Shown piece by piece: positions 12,064-18,766 of a DNA stretch of 21,730 bases. The translations under genes were made by a program, and so were the position numbers. The notes below the pieces were generated by a model, which was given only the letters and a program-made list of their open reading frames with translations, made no database searches and was not told the origin of the DNA. This stretch comes from a virus. Location: the IMG/VR virus record IMGVR_UViG_3300037119_004713, positions 1 through 21,730 of that record. One strand, written 5' to 3'. Position 1 is the stretch's first letter. Each line of letters begins with the position of its first letter.

Positions 12064-13593
12064 ATGGCCGAACTGCTTTGCTCCCCCCAGGTAGCGTCTG
12101 GCCCCCTCGCGGACATGGGCTATGCTGAAGAGGTTTGCTACGGATTTGCTCCCGCTGTAGTTGCACTGAAAACTCTTCGCCGGCGTAGCACGACCCTAAC
12201 CTTGACGAAAGACTCCTACGACTCCGAGGAGGTCCGTTCCGACCGCATGGTGTCGGACAGCCGCCACGGCATGCGGCGCGCATCCGGCGATATCGTGACC
12301 GAGCTTTCGCCCGGGTCGCACGCCGACTGGCAACAGGCGCTCCTGGGTGGCGTGTGGGTGCAGCCCACCCCTATTGTCATGTCAACCACAACCATGACGT
12401 TCACGCCGCTTTCGGACGGATCGGTCCAGATCGAAGGCATCGGGATCGATTGGGCGACGCTCGGCTATCGCATCGGTGACACCCTCAAGATCACCGGTTC
12501 GGTGAATAACACCTACAATAACAAGATCTTCACCATCTTTTCCGTCCCGTTGACCAACCGCGTGTTTGCGTGGCCGTCGAGCCAGTTCACCGGCGTGGGC
12601 GCGGCGCCGCTGTCTGCCGGCACAATCTCCACCGGCGGCTCCCGCTGCCAGATGGGTAATATCTACCGGTCCTTCACGGTTGAGCGCGCCTTCACCGATA
12701 TCGGATCGTTTATCACCTTCAACGGGATTCGGCCCAACCAGATGGCGGTCGACCTTCCGCCGACCGGTATCGCAACCGCGACCTACTCAGTGATCGGCCA
12801 GGACGCCAATCCGATCTCGCGCGCGTCGATCGATGGTTTGGCGGAGATCGTGATCACCCAGGTTGGCGCCGGGACGCTGACCTTCAACGGTGCGACGAAG
12901 AAGATCACCAGGAGCAGTGGGTCCTGGATCACTGATGGGTTCACCGTCGGCAGCCGCGTGGTGTTCTCGGGAACCGGCATCACCGATGTCCAGAACCGGA
13001 ACCCGCGGACCATCACCAAAATCGACTCGGCGACCGTGATCACCGTTGCCTCGGCGATCCAGACGGGTGGCCCATACTCGGGCCCGTTCGAGATCCTGCG
13101 CGTCGGCCTGCCTGACTATACGCTGGTGAGTGATGAAGACGTGCTGGTGGCGGTCTCGGGCGTGCTTCTCAAGGACGGCACACCATGCGCGACGATCACC
13201 GGCATGAACTTCAGCATCGACAACCAGATGAGCGGTTCCGAGGTGGTCGGCGCCAACATCATCCCGACGGTGCTATATGGTATCCAGTGCGTGGTTTCCG
13301 GCACGATCACCGTCTTGTTCGACCGAGGTGGCCTGGGAGAAGCGCTCTACAACGCCTTTGACCTGGAACAGGACGATATTACCCTGATCATGCGGCTGGA
13401 CACCGCGGCCGGAGATGACGCGATCACCTTTACCTTCCCCCGCTGCAAGATCAACACAGGGTCGATCGGCGACGCGGTGGCGGAGGGCCTGCCGGTTTCG
13501 TGCGACTTCCGCGCACTGAAGCCGCATGCCGCCTTCCCGCTGGCGCCGGTCTCCCAGATCGTCATCAGCGACACGACGGTCCCGCCGGCCTGA
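12064..13593 (+). CDS. Major tail tube protein with two inserted beta domains
   Basis: 509 residues; AGGAGAGG (12049-12056) is 7 bases before the ATG. ADMGYAEEVCYGFAPAVVAL (about 16-35), then KTLRRRSTTLTLTKDSYDSE, EEVRSDRMVSDSRHGMRRAS and ELSPGSHADWQQALLGGVW match the start of the phage tail tube family (GYxEExxyGxxPAxpaxkxLRrtg ... S.EirsDRqv.dxrhG). Family members of about 300 residues lack two segments present here, about 110-195 (GYRIGDTLKITG, IFTIFSV) and about 262-345 (DGFTVGSRVVFSGTG, ITKIDSATVITVA), which resemble each other and look like inserted Ig/OB-type domains that would stand out from the tube. The C-terminus (CDFRALKPHAAFPLAPVSQI) is the usual final strand. It forms the inner tube through which DNA passes. 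Confidence 0.82.
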   Translation: MAELLCSPQVASGPLADMGYAEEVCYGFAPAVVALKTLRRRSTTLTLTKDSYDSEEVRSDRMVSDSRHGMRRASGDIVTELSPGSHADWQQALLGGVWVQPTPIVMSTTTMTFTPLSDGSVQIEGIGIDWATLGYRIGDTLKITGSVNNTYNNKIFTIFSVPLTNRVFAWPSSQFTGVGAAPLSAGTISTGGSRCQMGNIYRSFTVERAFTDIGSFITFNGIRPNQMAVDLPPTGIATATYSVIGQDANPISRASIDGLAEIVITQVGAGTLTFNGATKKITRSSGSWITDGFTVGSRVVFSGTGITDVQNRNPRTITKIDSATVITVASAIQTGGPYSGPFEILRVGLPDYTLVSDEDVLVAVSGVLLKDGTPCATITGMNFSIDNQMSGSEVVGANIIPTVLYGIQCVVSGTITVLFDRGGLGEALYNAFDLEQDDITLIMRLDTAAGDDAITFTFPRCKINTGSIGDAVAEGLPVSCDFRALKPHAAFPLAPVSQIVISDTTVPPA

Positions 13594-13620
13594 TCCCTTG
13601 CCGGCGGGTTTGCCGGCGGG
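13581..13620 (+). terminator. Hairpin at the end of the tail tube gene
   Basis: CCCGCCGGC (13581-13589) pairs with GCCGGCGGG at 13600-13608, or alternatively with a second identical GCCGGCGGG at 13612-13620. The stop codon TGA 13591-13593 is in the loop. Only GTTT follows the second copy region, so it may attenuate transcription and not fully stop it. Mutually exclusive pairings are possible. Confidence 0.5.
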
Positions 13621-13684
13621 TAGTGTTTAACACGGTGCAATCGACTTGCGCCGTGCGAAACCTCACCAAAAAGGGATCAGAATA

Positions 13685-14110
13685 GTGGACCTGAACGATT
13701 TCAAGGCCAATGACGAGCCGCAGTCGCTCGTGCTCGTGCATCCGGTAACGGGGGCGGACCTGACCGCCAACGGTGCGCCGATGACCCTGCACATCATCGG
13801 CCCGGACCACCCCACCATGCGGGCGCTTGAGCGCAAGGTGACCGATCGCCGACTCAAGCAGGCGTCGCGGACTAACCGCGTCGAAATCACCGCGCAGATG
13901 GTGGAAGAGGAACTGATGGAGCGGCTGGCAACGGCGATTGTCGGCTGGGAAAATATCTACGCCGGCGGCAAGCCGGTGGAATGGTCGCACGAAGAGGCTC
14001 GGCAGCTTGTACAGGACTATCCGGTCTTTCGGGAGCAGATCGCGCAGTGCTTTGGTGATCGCGGAAATTTTCTGGCGGCGGCTTCGGGGAAGACCTCGAA
14101 GCCGCTCTGA
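13685..14110 (+). CDS. Tail assembly chaperone (lambda gpG-like)
   Basis: 141 residues from GTG 13685, preceded by AAGGGATCA. The start LNDFKANDEPQSLVLVHPVT (after an initial VD), then DLTANGAPMTLHIIGPDHPT, ALERKVTDRRLKQASR, TAQMVEEELMERLATAIVGW and EEARQLVQDYPVFREQIAQC followed by DRGNF follow the chaperone pattern of siphophages, in which the protein coats the tape measure before tube assembly. The order tube, chaperone, tape measure is standard. Near its 3' end is the heptamer AAATTTT, which allows a fraction of ribosomes to move into the -1 frame and make a 272-residue extended form. Confidence 0.78.
   Translation: MDLNDFKANDEPQSLVLVHPVTGADLTANGAPMTLHIIGPDHPTMRALERKVTDRRLKQASRTNRVEITAQMVEEELMERLATAIVGWENIYAGGKPVEWSHEEARQLVQDYPVFREQIAQCFGDRGNFLAAASGKTSKPL
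14065..14071 (+). promoter_or_regulatory. Programmed -1 frameshift site (slippery heptamer)
   Basis: In the chaperone frame the codons are GGA AAT TTT CTG, so the heptamer reads A AAT TTT, which fits X XXY YYZ. The -1 frame is open from 14059, just after its TGA at 14056-14058, and continues to 14502. The window between these two stops is 14059-14110, and the heptamer is in it. GC-rich sequence follows (CTGGCGGCGGCTTCGG), which could form a stimulatory structure. Confidence 0.72.
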
Positions 14111-14502
14111 GGGGCGCTGTCCGCGCCCAGTTCGACTTGGGGCAGACATGGGAAGATGGGCGCACGCTGAGAGAGCACCTGGAAGCGGCGGAGGCCGCCA
14201 CCGGGCGCGTGCCGGAGCGTCTGCAGACGCCGCCCCTGCCCGCGTGCTTCGAGCGTCACCTGAGGATCTGGGGCGACTTGCACCGGCGGCGGCGGGCCAC
14301 CGACATGGGTGGGCTCCTGCCGTTCTCCTGGGAGGCGATGGCCGCTTACTGTCAGGTGACCGGGGAGGTGCTAGGCCGGGCCGACGTCCGGATTGTGGAG
14401 TCGATCGAAGAGGAGTTTTTCGAGGCGCGCGCGGCCGGCGAGGAGCGGCGGACGAAGACGGAAGAGCGGCGCGCGGCGAGCAAGGGCGTAGCGAGGCGGT
14501 AG
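14065..14502 (+). CDS. Frameshift extension of the tail assembly chaperone (gpGT-like T part)
   Basis: After the slip the product reads on in the -1 frame as SGGGFGEDLEAALRGAVRAQ, then FDLGQTWEDGRTLREHLEAA, ATGRVPERLQTPPLPACFER, RATDMGGLLPFSWEAMAAYC and a charged C-terminus (EEFFEARAAGEERRTKTEER). The frame has no ATG; the only conventional starts are a TTG at 14137 and later codons, with no ribosome binding site, whereas the residues before 14137 already look coding. This is the usual situation of lambda gpGT-type extensions, made at a low ratio and needed for tail assembly. The full G-T product would have 272 residues (129 + 143). Confidence 0.68.
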   Translation, partial: KFSGGGFGEDLEAALRGAVRAQFDLGQTWEDGRTLREHLEAAEAATGRVPERLQTPPLPACFERHLRIWGDLHRRRRATDMGGLLPFSWEAMAAYCQVTGEVLGRADVRIVESIEEEFFEARAAGEERRTKTEERRAASKGVARR

Positions 14503-14509
14503 CGGGGCT

Positions 14510-14746
14510 ATGAAGCGGGTAGGGATCATGACATGTGCGGACTGCGGAAAGGAGGCGCTAATTTACGCCAGTGGCCGCTGCCGCACATGTTATCAGGTCT
14601 GGCGCCGAGGGAAATTTACGGCGGCGGCGGGGGCGGACTGTATCGGGATTAATGGAAAGTCGAAATATCTAGGTATATTTGATACGACTGATGAAGCGAG
14701 GCTGGCATACTTAGACGCAGCTAACGAATATGGGATCGTTACTTAG
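14510..14746 (+). CDS. Remnant of a zinc-finger/AP2 homing-endonuclease-type gene
   Basis: 78 residues from ATG 14510 (ATG 14528 is an alternative). Residues 9-27 have CADC and CRTC (C9, C12, C24, C27) followed by YQVWRRGKF, which resembles the finger at the N-terminus of phage HNH endonucleases (CxxC...YxxGxCxxCYxxWRR). Residues about 46-73 (INGKSKYLGIFDTTDEARLA then YLDAANEYG) are the second half of an AP2 DNA-binding domain (NGKRKYLGxFDTxEEAaxAYdxAAxE). The HNH nuclease and the first AP2 strands are missing between them. Base composition is lower in GC than the neighbours, and the gene sits between chaperone and tape measure, a common insertion place. It is either an internal-deletion relic or a small DNA-binding protein; no nuclease motif remains. 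Confidence 0.62.
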   Translation: MKRVGIMTCADCGKEALIYASGRCRTCYQVWRRGKFTAAAGADCIGINGKSKYLGIFDTTDEARLAYLDAANEYGIVT

Positions 14747-17700
14747 ATGGCGAACCAGATTTCTTTAGGTGTGGAAGTAGATAGCTCAGACGTCAAGTCG
14801 GGCGAGGCCGCCTTCGCCCGACTGACCAAGCAGTTGCACGCCACCCAAACCGAACTCGACCGGCTAGCGAAATCGTCGGCCGGCGCCGACGCGGAGATCC
14901 GGCGCGCCGCTAAATCCCAGAGTTCGCTGGACGCTGCGGGGAAATCCGCAGCGGCACAGGTGACACGCCTTAACGGGGCGCTATCCAGCACCGCGAGCCT
15001 TGCGCGCGCCGTCCAGGGGGCGTTCGCGGCCTTCGTGGGAGCTGGTTTCGTCCGGAGCCTCATGGACACGACCACACAACTTCAGCAGATTAACCAGACA
15101 TTCGAGTTTGTAGCTGGCTCCGCCGCGGGCGCGCGGCAGGAAATGGACTATGTCACCAAGACCGCCGAGGCTCTCGGTCAAGGTATCCTGTCCTCCGCCA
15201 ACGCGTATTCCGGCCTTCTCGTTGCCGCCAATGCGTCGAACATTTCACTGGAGGACACGCGCAACCTCTACGAGGGTTTGTCGTCGGCCGCGACCGTCCT
15301 TAATATGAACCAATACCAGTTGGAAGGCGCGATGAACGCCGTCCAACAGATGATGTCCAAGGGCGTGGTACAGGCCGAAGAGTTGCGCGGACAACTGGGC
15401 GAACGGCTAAAGGGCGCGTTCAACCTGGCTGCAAAAAGCATGGGGATGGATGTTAAGGAACTGAGCAAACAGCTGCAACTCGGGAATATCTCTACCGCAC
15501 GTTTTGTCGCCGCTTTCGGTCCGTATTTACAGAAAATATTTGAGGAACGAGCTAAAAATATTCAGAGTACTACCAAGTCGATGAATGCACTCGATAATGC
15601 CATGCTGCATTTACGCGAGTCGGTAATAAAGGGCGGTTTCCAAGAAGCGCTTACCACAGTACTGGACATCCTGACCGGCATTGCGTCGTCCCAAGAAGCG
15701 ATCAGTGTCGCACAGGGTCTTGGCAGCGCCTTCAAGTTTATGGCCACCCACGGCGAAGCGGCGGCGATGACGCTCGGCCTGATCGCCAGGGCGTTCTTCG
15801 GGCTTCCCGGGCTAATCGCCGGCGGCGCCGCGGCGCTGTTGCTCTTCACCCAGCGGACGGTGGAGGTCGGCGCCGAGCACGTCAAGATCGGGGCGATCAT
15901 CTCGGCGTTCTGGACCGCCACCGTCAACAGCGCGCAAGCCGCCGGCGAGCTAGTCGCGGCGGTCTGGGATTTTATCGCGGAGTCGGCAGCAGTGGTTCCG
16001 ACCCGGCTTGCGCTGCGCTGGGCGGAGGTAAAAGGCGACTTTGCCAGCCTCGTGAAGTGGCTCACCGACAAGTGGGCGTCACTCATGACGATGCTGTCAG
16101 AGGGCGCCGCCAAGGTTCCGTTTTTTGGCGAATTAGCGGATTCACTGGCGAAAAACGCCCAGGGCGCGAAGAACTTTTCGGCCGAAATGACGGCAATGAT
16201 GAAGGATGCCGACGCAGCCGCCGACGCCGCGACGGCGGGGCTGGCGAAACAGGAGGCGGCGCGGGGCGCCGTCAGTGCGGCATATCAGAAATTCATGGCG
16301 CTGGACGCCAATGCCACACTGGCCAACGCTGCCGCGACCGCAGAAGCCAACCAGCGTGAAGAAAATGCCCGGATGGAAAAACTCGACGGGCTGAAGAAGA
16401 TGGTCGGGGCAACCGACGAACTCACGGGTTCAACGGGTGCGCTGGCCGACGCAACCACCAAAGCCGGCGGTGCCGCCAAAAAGCAAGCCGACGAACTGGC
16501 TGGCGCGAAGAAAGTCCTGGAGGAATTCAAACTCGCCAACCAACGGGCCCGCGAGGCGCTGACGGCAGGGATCACGACTGACCGCGATAACGCGATCGCC
16601 GAAGGGGTGCAGAAGCTTCAGGACGCGCTACACGGCACGAACACGTCGATGGAGCAATTCCTGAAAACGGCCGGCTACACGCGCGAGCAATTCGAGGCGA
16701 TGCTCGGCAATACGCATGACATGACCGCGCAGCTCTCCAAGCAGGCTGACTTGGTCGGGTCCATTGCCGAAGGGCTCAAGAGCTTCCAGACGGGTGATCT
16801 TGCCGGCGGCGGGACCAGCATCGTTCAGGGCTTGTCCGATGCGCTTTTCGGCGAACAGATGAAAAACGCCTTCGATGATCTCGCCACCAAGCTGGCGAAC
16901 GGGATCAAGGGCGCGCTGGGCAAGAGCGGATTGCTGAGCGGGAATGCGCAAATGACTTCCGCGGTAGGAAGCGGGATCGCTACCGCGGCCATCGGTGGTA
17001 TGAATGAGGACGCATCCACAGTAGGCGCCGGCATCGGGCAGGCGGCGGGCGCCGTGCTTGGGAGTTTCATTCCCGGGGTCGGCACCGCGATCGGCAGCGT
17101 CCTGGGTGCCCTTGCCGGCGGTGGCATCGCTAAAGCCCTCAGCGGCGGCTCGGACTTCAAGCGCGCCAGCGGCGTCGCCTTCGAAGGCACCCCATACGAG
17201 CGCAGCGTTCGGACCAGCGACACCGTGAAGGTCGGCCGACAGGATCTTGCACTGGAGGGCCGCTTCGCCTTCCAGGCGGTCAAGGACATCCTGGGCGACT
17301 TCCAGGGCGCGCTGACCGATTATGTCAAGAGCACCGGCGGGACGGTGGCGGCCGGAACCAAGCTGGTGGTCGATCAGGCCGCGGCGCTCAAAGCGATTAC
17401 CGGCGCGGTCAACGAAAAAGGCATCAAGGGGACTGGAAAAGAAGGCAAGGAAGCCGGCGAGAGGATCCAGGCGAGGGTAGCGGAGATCATGGCCATCGCC
17501 GGGCTGATCGTCCAGAAGGCCGAGCCGCAACTCACCGAGGCGCAGCGGCTATGGCGCGAGGCGCAAAAGAAGTTCTCCGACGAGAACGTGGCGATCCTGC
17601 GCGATTTGGGCTTCAGCGCAGCCCAAATCGCCAAAGCGCAGCAGGCGGTCAGGGCCGATATCGTGAACGCCTTCGACCAGGAAATGGCCGGCGCGTTGAT

Positions 17701-18766
17701 CGACACCGGTCGCGCTACCAAACAGCAACTCGACCTCTGGAAGCAAATCGAACTGAAGGCGCTGCACGACCGCCGCGCCCAGTCACTCGCGACCGCCAAA
17801 GAGATCGGCGCCAACGTCGATCTGGTGCTGGCGAACTTCGCCGGCCAGCGGGCCGAGATCGTGGAAAAGTGGAAGGAGATGGTCGACGCGCTGGCACCGC
17901 CGATCGAAGCGAAAATCACCAACCGCGAGCGCTTGGATTTCGCGGATTCGATCCTCGACCAGCTGACGACCATCAACAAGGGTGCTGCCGCTTCGCGCTC
18001 GGCGATTCAGCATTGGTATATGGTTCAGGTGGCGATCGCGAAAGACAACCGGATCCAGATGATCGCGGAGGCGAGGCGGCTGGGCCTGTCCGTGCTGGAC
18101 GTCAACCGGCTGTATAATCAGCAGATTGTCGAGATCAATAAGGCGCGCGACGATCTTCTGACCGCCAAGGCACGCGAGGCCGCCCAGGCGCAGGTGGCGG
18201 CGGTGACTGACCTCCTGGGCAAGCTGAACGACCGGATGAAGGATCTAGTCAGCCAACGCAGCGACGTCATGCAGGAACTGACGAAGCGGGCCAACGAAGC
18301 CCGGCAGGCCGAAGAGGCGCTGGCCGACGCGCGCAAGGGGCTCGCGGTGTCGACGCTGGCGCCGGGGGGGCCGCTGGATGTCTTCAAGGCGCTGCAGGCG
18401 CAGTTCAACGAGTCGGTGGCCACGGCGAAGACCGGCGATGCCGGCGCCGCTAGCGATGCCGGCCGGCTGGCCCAACAGTTGCTCGAAGCCGGCCGAAACG
18501 TTTACGGCTCCAGCACCGGCTATGCCAGCCTCTTCAAGCAGGTGAACACCTCGCTGACCGGGGTGCAGGGCGTCTTCGACAAAGAGGCCGACCGCATCGA
18601 GGCGGTGCTGGACAAGGAAACCTTTGCCGACGTCACCGAAAAGAGCACGACCGCGCTTCTCAAGGCGCTGGGATCGATCGATGCCACGATGGACCGGGTG
18701 CAAAAGTCTATCGACGCACAGACAGCTAAACTAACTACGGCGCAACAAAAGTCTAAGGTGGCATAA
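14747..18766 (+). CDS. Tail tape measure protein
   Basis: 1339 residues, starting directly after the preceding TAG. It is the longest gene of the window, as expected for the protein that sets tail length. Residues about 75-270 are the tape measure N-terminal domain (SLMDTTTQLQQINQTFEFVA, then NAYSGLLVAANASNISLEDT, NQYQLEGAMNAVQQMMSKGV, VQAEELRGQLGERLKGAF). A hydrophobic segment (TLGLIARAFFGLPGLIAGGA) lies near 343-363, and a Gly/Ala-rich one (AIGGMNEDASTVGAGIGQAA through GALAGGGIAKAL) near 745-800. Long Ala/Glu/Lys helical stretches cover the rest, with a coiled coil near the C-terminus (about 1140-1220). The first codons and the region 15480-15650 are less GC-rich than the rest. By the usual 1.5 angstrom per residue rule of thumb the tail would be near 200 nm. 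Confidence 0.92.
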   Translation: MANQISLGVEVDSSDVKSGEAAFARLTKQLHATQTELDRLAKSSAGADAEIRRAAKSQSSLDAAGKSAAAQVTRLNGALSSTASLARAVQGAFAAFVGAGFVRSLMDTTTQLQQINQTFEFVAGSAAGARQEMDYVTKTAEALGQGILSSANAYSGLLVAANASNISLEDTRNLYEGLSSAATVLNMNQYQLEGAMNAVQQMMSKGVVQAEELRGQLGERLKGAFNLAAKSMGMDVKELSKQLQLGNISTARFVAAFGPYLQKIFEERAKNIQSTTKSMNALDNAMLHLRESVIKGGFQEALTTVLDILTGIASSQEAISVAQGLGSAFKFMATHGEAAAMTLGLIARAFFGLPGLIAGGAAALLLFTQRTVEVGAEHVKIGAIISAFWTATVNSAQAAGELVAAVWDFIAESAAVVPTRLALRWAEVKGDFASLVKWLTDKWASLMTMLSEGAAKVPFFGELADSLAKNAQGAKNFSAEMTAMMKDADAAADAATAGLAKQEAARGAVSAAYQKFMALDANATLANAAATAEANQREENARMEKLDGLKKMVGATDELTGSTGALADATTKAGGAAKKQADELAGAKKVLEEFKLANQRAREALTAGITTDRDNAIAEGVQKLQDALHGTNTSMEQFLKTAGYTREQFEAMLGNTHDMTAQLSKQADLVGSIAEGLKSFQTGDLAGGGTSIVQGLSDALFGEQMKNAFDDLATKLANGIKGALGKSGLLSGNAQMTSAVGSGIATAAIGGMNEDASTVGAGIGQAAGAVLGSFIPGVGTAIGSVLGALAGGGIAKALSGGSDFKRASGVAFEGTPYERSVRTSDTVKVGRQDLALEGRFAFQAVKDILGDFQGALTDYVKSTGGTVAAGTKLVVDQAAALKAITGAVNEKGIKGTGKEGKEAGERIQARVAEIMAIAGLIVQKAEPQLTEAQRLWREAQKKFSDENVAILRDLGFSAAQIAKAQQAVRADIVNAFDQEMAGALIDTGRATKQQLDLWKQIELKALHDRRAQSLATAKEIGANVDLVLANFAGQRAEIVEKWKEMVDALAPPIEAKITNRERLDFADSILDQLTTINKGAAASRSAIQHWYMVQVAIAKDNRIQMIAEARRLGLSVLDVNRLYNQQIVEINKARDDLLTAKAREAAQAQVAAVTDLLGKLNDRMKDLVSQRSDVMQELTKRANEARQAEEALADARKGLAVSTLAPGGPLDVFKALQAQFNESVATAKTGDAGAASDAGRLAQQLLEAGRNVYGSSTGYASLFKQVNTSLTGVQGVFDKEADRIEAVLDKETFADVTEKSTTALLKALGSIDATMDRVQKSIDAQTAKLTTAQQKSKVA

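Follow-up and report, generated by a model that had tools for sequence, protein, structure and literature searches.

The tail assembly chaperone gene of this virus very probably undergoes ordinary programmed -1 frameshifting of the phage λ G/GT type, with the slip taking place at the heptamer A AAT TTT. Such a shift had been proposed in an initial annotation, and the reading is supported, at the level of sequence comparison, by the families of the two protein domains, by synteny, and by the overlap and slip motifs seen among relatives. The signal of the window (the whole stretch of 21,730 nucleotides that was analyzed) is a textbook example of known phage chaperone frameshifting; the wider observation, which goes beyond the window, is that the direction of the shift appears to be mixed within one homologous family.

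The tail gene locus

The tail genes and the elements of the slip site lie on the plus strand, in the order tail tube, G, T, tape measure. The major tail tube protein gene (12064 to 13593, 509 aa) matches Pfam Phage_tube_2 (3.2e-26) and PHROG_290 (6e-46), and the tape measure protein gene (14747 to 18766, 1339 aa) matches TMP_3 (6.4e-23) and PHROG_2335 (9.7e-41). Between the two, in the position of a G/GT-type chaperone, lies G (13685 to 14110), which encodes the 141-aa short form of a gpG-like tail assembly chaperone; it begins with GTG, preceded by a putative Shine-Dalgarno-like AAGGGA (13671 to 13676) read off the sequence, ends with TGA (14108 to 14110), and belongs to a known chaperone family, PHROG_313 (6.3e-15). 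The structural hits of its AlphaFold model (pLDDT 90), with E values down to 2.8e-5, are predicted viral proteins that bear the name tape-measure chaperone or tail assembly chaperone. With the limit set at E 0.1, a Pfam scan gave no match for the G half; neither domain, G or T, gave a meaningful result against solved structures, and the Rfam and tRNA scans of the window were empty.

A very stable hairpin (13577 to 13615), among the strongest 40-nt folds of the window, is found between the tail tube gene and G, in the same place as the annotated terminator of Mannheimia phage 1152AP2; it could lower the expression of G or serve as a terminator. Between T and the tape measure gene, a small ORF (14510 to 14746, starting at ATG 14510 or 14528; 72 to 78 aa) carries two CxxC pairs and an AP2-like C-terminus. 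It matches Pfam AP2 at 0.0015, below the cut-off, and PHROG_99, HNH endonuclease, at 5.6e-7, with both matches restricted to the AP2-like part, and it may be what is left of a homing endonuclease, or else a small protein that binds DNA.

The slippery heptamer, the overlap and a predicted hairpin

The G frame shares 52 open bases (14059 to 14110) with the -1 frame, bounded by a TGA at 14056 to 14058 ahead of the -1 frame and by the G stop codon at the other end, exactly as had been claimed. Within this overlap lies AAATTTT (14065 to 14071), whose phase in the G frame, A AAT TTT, bears out its earlier assignment to the X XXY YYZ form; it is the sole strict heptamer of this form in the overlap. 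Among 5,002 codon positions read in frame across the genes of the window, there are 11 strict X XXY YYZ heptamers, only 2 of which have AAA or TTT as YYY. The number of the latter kind expected by chance in 17 codons is 0.007, and when the codons of G were shuffled, one appeared in the overlap in 0.9% of the shuffles. The window thus has, in frame and inside the overlap, the X_XX.Z_ZZ.N heptamer of bacterial -1 signals (PMC4066793), and its A_AA.U_UU.U belongs to the class H_HH.U_UU.Y, which is among the most efficient in Escherichia coli (PMC4066793). An upstream Shine-Dalgarno-like stimulator, an optional element located 6 to 17 nt before the heptamer, was not found in the preceding 25 bases (TCGCGCAGTGCTTTGGTGATCGCGG). 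The predicted junction reads ...GDRGNF|SGGGFGEDLEAALR..., and the predicted junction peptide of the G-T fusion is GNFSGGGFGEDLEAALR; the -1 reading of the sequence agrees in this respect with the passage from RGNF to SGGGFG given in the initial annotation.

To this can be added a putative stimulatory hairpin that had been missed previously. It is predicted at 14077 to 14106, with 13 bp, an AAGA loop and a folding energy of -24.4 kcal/mol, and it ends just before the G stop codon. The spacer that separates it from the heptamer is 5 nt long (14072 to 14076), and published bacterial -1 stimulators begin 5 to 8 nt downstream (PMC4066793), a distance that the predicted hairpin matches. The 40-nt windows that start at 14072 to 14076 have energies of -24.9 to -25.7 kcal/mol, which places them in the top 0.06 to 0.12% across the 21.7 kb, and the fold of 14072 to 14125 has a z of -2.56 relative to dinucleotide shuffles. 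When codons were randomized synonymously, the observed stability was reached in 389 of 20,000 cases for the -1 frame and in 19 of 20,000 for the G frame. A stimulatory hairpin common to the whole family was looked for in the relatives described below and was not found, and only some members have one. The mean fold z of the motif classes with more than one member is only -0.3 to -0.7, and compact hairpins at 5 to 6 nt occur in some other members of the A AAT TTY class (L136, L154 and L186).

The T domain and the -1 frame

The -1 extension, T, runs from 14071 to 14502, with a TAG stop at 14500 to 14502, and adds 143 residues past the slip. Over 14071 to 14499, G+C by codon position is 0.74/0.55/0.85 in the -1 frame, which resembles the 0.64/0.46/0.77 of the tape measure gene; the remaining two frames over the same interval are without this pattern. 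The extension matches PF23812 (Phage_TAC_18) at 5.5e-11 and 42.9 bits (cut-off 27), as do all seven of the aligned homologous T domains, and no other Pfam family is seen in the T half at E up to 0.1. AlphaFold gives a five-helix domain with a pLDDT of 93.5. Both the G+C pattern and the PF23812 match uphold the view that the -1 frame is coding from the slip site onward.

The earliest ATG, GTG or TTG in the T frame is TTG 14137, and T could be translated independently, with no frameshift at all, if ribosomes initiated at a weak start or reinitiated once G had ended. Yet TTG 14137 lies within the conserved domain, so that a start here would remove the first conserved helix, and it has no Shine-Dalgarno-like sequence ahead of it; the earlier claim that the -1 frame lacks a ribosome binding site and an ATG stands. 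In a few relatives T does have a GTG or TTG close to its start, but in the first sample of 62 non-redundant loci, 51 have no ATG, GTG or TTG before profile column 10, and among the 11 that have such a codon near the T start, a Shine-Dalgarno-like sequence accompanies it in one (L081, GTG 2522). Furthermore, the similarity among T domains extends right to the slip site itself. Independent translation of T is for these reasons judged quite unlikely, and homologues with their own T start, named beforehand as the observation that would speak against a frameshift, do not overturn it. T has the character of the second domain of a G/GT-type gene, that is, one placed in an overlapping frame without a start of its own, and the overlap recurs in 118 of 118 relatives.

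The sequence at the site, AAT TTT CTG, has a C after TTT, and a +1 shift at TTT_C could also be imagined, like that of the 21 relatives in which AAC TTT C is the usual reading, all the more as the +1 frame is open from 13917 to 14510. Against this, the T domain sits in the -1 frame, where the T profile also finds its best match in the window; the +1 frame does not encode a T domain, and its G+C pattern of 0.87/0.72/0.54 is noncoding. A +1 shift as the source of the window's fusion is accordingly considered exceedingly improbable. The 191-aa ORF that crosses the site in the +1 frame was rejected because of the same noncoding pattern. The openness of this frame from 13917 to 14510 is an effect of the G+C-rich composition and could mislead gene callers.

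Proposed mechanism

With -1 frameshifting at A AAT TTT as the preferred reading, we infer from the sequence the slippage itself, its efficiency and the roles of both products. Most ribosomes would end G at the TGA at 14108 to 14110 and yield the 141-aa chaperone. A minority would pause at the predicted hairpin (14077 to 14106) while AAT occupies the P site and TTT the A site; the tRNAs for Asn and Phe would then both slip one base back, presumably simultaneously, moving from AAT TTT to AAA TTT, and translation would resume in the -1 frame at TCT (Ser) and proceed to 14500 to 14502. The product would be a G-T fusion, GT, of 129 + 143 = 272 aa, made alongside the 141-aa short form. In λ, the partner of gpG is the tape measure protein and that of T is the tail tube subunit (PMC5009743); by analogy, the abundant short copies would bind the tape measure protein, and the scarce long copies would use their T domain to bring in the tail tube subunit. 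In an earlier study, the frameshift efficiency of two chaperone genes was 6-7% (PMC3711429).

Conservation of the site among relatives

Relatives were collected by tblastn against phage records and by alignment-based scans of IMG/VR, the latter seeded with the T domain regardless of its position relative to G. After removal of copies, 118 non-redundant loci with both domains were obtained. T overlaps the end of G out of frame in every one, 97 of them having it in the -1 frame and 21 in the +1 frame; T in frame with G, or as a separate gene, is seen in none of the 118. A slip motif is likewise present throughout, at or next to the matching codon, and in 116 loci the slip codon falls at most one position from the same profile column. 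The -1 motifs are G GAT TTT in 34 loci, T TTT TTG/C in 29, A AAT TTY in 18 (the window included), other T TTT sites in 10, G GGA AAR in 4 (R being G or C, as seen in GGGAAAG and GGGAAAC), and C CCT TTC and G GGT TTT in 1 each. The 21 +1 sites are mostly AAC TTT followed by CGA, CAA, CAG or CGC. Because the motifs vary at the same profile column, it is the site that is conserved, and not the heptamer universally; by this sequence comparison, the heptamer appears as one among several interchangeable versions. The earlier expectation of conservation in homologues therefore held for the displaced open frame (118 of 118), but neither for the exact heptamer, with A AAT TTY in 18 of 118, nor for the -1 direction in 21.

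The nearest relative of the window, L016, is 34% identical and has T TTT TTG at the same place, and the same layout is found in the isolated phages Roseobacter CRP-6, Mannheimia 1152AP2 and Pasteurella Pmp13. Single-protein scans of viral contigs, queried with G, with T or with the tail tube protein, revealed no close relative of the window besides identical contigs from sibling samples. Scans of genome contigs found no relative, and therefore no host or prophage could be placed; the seven-row alignments are too divergent as scan queries.

Metagenome contigs do get genes split by sequencing or assembly errors, and a single gene broken in this way, or a decaying pseudogene, might also present two overlapping frames. 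But over their stretches of overlap with the window, contigs from samples 3300037070 and 3300037071 show no difference from it, and the one from 3300037071 spans the site, although the two are perhaps not fully independent data. In addition, every one of the 118 relatives, isolated phages included, has the displaced frame at the matching codon or beside it, and none has a single open frame. An error or pseudogene is hardly credible in this light. The fusion might instead arise by slippage of RNA polymerase rather than of the ribosome, and transcriptional slippage likewise joins frames in bacteria. It requires longer homopolymer runs, however, whereas no A or T run at the site exceeds four bases, and the relatives with G GAT TTT and G GGA AAR are also without a long run; this explanation is thought most improbable.

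G GAT TTT, the commonest -1 class, is canonical only in the A-site tetramer T TTT, and GAT re-pairs poorly on GGA. Members of this class (L014, L020, L022, L030 and others) often have GAG GAG about 20 nt upstream, and it is possible that they use a single-tRNA slip with a Shine-Dalgarno-like stimulator. Several public records treat the T frame incorrectly. It is started too late, as a separate gene, in CRP-6 (gp44) and in P26059A_0023, and it is not annotated in the record of Limnohabitans phage DC31; the T frames concerned are those of L005 (3058 to 3363), L006 (3458 to 3685) and L009 (3345 to 3823).

The direction of the shift

A tree built from 101 fusion proteins gathers the +1 members into a single group, broken only by L106, a -1 member with A AAT TTT at 1486 to 1492 that is nested inside it. 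A 35-row tree unites L106 with three +1 members on a branch with support 100/99. An AU test rejected the +1 members as one clade without L106, with p = 0.001, a value that is somewhat optimistic given that the grouping was picked after the first tree had been seen. Since this arrangement is rejected, the direction of the shift seems, on the tree, to have changed more than once. The +1 relatives are L006 (3311 to 3319), L009 (3333 to 3341) and 19 more non-redundant loci among L032 to L174; Curvibacter phage P26059A and Limnohabitans phage DC31 are among their sources.

Versions of the chaperone frameshift that use +1 or -2 are known in other phages (PMC5009743, PMC3498833), and the frame of a +1 shift would also be reached by -2, but the Phe tRNA could re-pair from UUU onto UUC, which favors +1, as argued for influenza PA-X (PMC3498833). 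In PA-X the site is UCC_UUU_CGU, with the +1 shift at UUU_C (PMC3498833), and the 21 relatives carry TTT, nearly always followed by C, at the homologous codon. By sequence, this likeness would hold for the +1 relatives only, the window itself being assigned to -1. The window's AAT TTT C is compatible with the -1 heptamer as well as with the UUU_C motif of +1 sites. There is a further proposal, for which we see the case as evenly balanced: that the direction of the shift has flipped between -1 and +1 at one phenylalanine codon within one homologous family, with at least two changes on the tree, and that sequences of the window's AAT TTT C type would be the natural bridge and may slip both ways at some level. 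No description of mixed -1 and +1 use at one codon within one homologous family was found in the open-licence literature.

Comparison with known systems

Programmed -1 frameshifting to give gpG and gpGT is well described for phage λ (Levin 1993; Xu 2004; reviewed in PMC5009743), and conserved frameshifting in tail chaperone genes is already established (Xu 2004, cited in PMC5009743; PMC10885494). Like λ, the window has a chaperone gene between the major tail protein and the tape measure, a second overlapping frame that would be reached by a -1 shift, and predicted short and long products. The heptamer was correctly noted to differ, reading A AAT TTT instead of the G GGA AAG of λ, and in the window it is followed 5 nt downstream by a strong predicted hairpin. 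The T domain of the window matches PF23812, unlike the λ G and T families; with PF23812 found only in the T half, and no family in the G half down to the limit of E 0.1, membership in the Pfam families of λ gpG and gpT was not detected.

Closer counterparts are the PF23812 (Phage_TAC_18)/PHROG_313 chaperones of CRP-6 (gp45-gp44) and Mannheimia phage 1152AP2, which have homologous G and T domains and a slip codon at the same or the neighboring position. Their slip sites are G GAT TTT and G GGA AAG, respectively, as against A AAT TTT in the window, and their second frame is recorded as a hypothetical gene of its own. The chaperones of Vandenendeviridae and Andersonviridae are also similar, the -1 slip taking place on a run of T where the chaperone frame ends and the -1 frame being free of premature stops (PMC12846349); for these only a conserved GTTTTT run is reported (PMC12846349), and they are likened to the window by layout, not by homology.

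Implications

For the window, the gene model is corrected from two genes to one gene with two products, and in several public records the second frame has been mis-started or missed. The +1 relatives offer candidates from phages for the class of +1 sites at UUU_C that was predicted from influenza PA-X (PMC3498833). Taken together, the relatives constitute a ready set in which the displacement of the frame is always kept, whereas slip motif, stimulator and shift direction all differ between members, and the evolution of recoding signals is therefore testable in this family.
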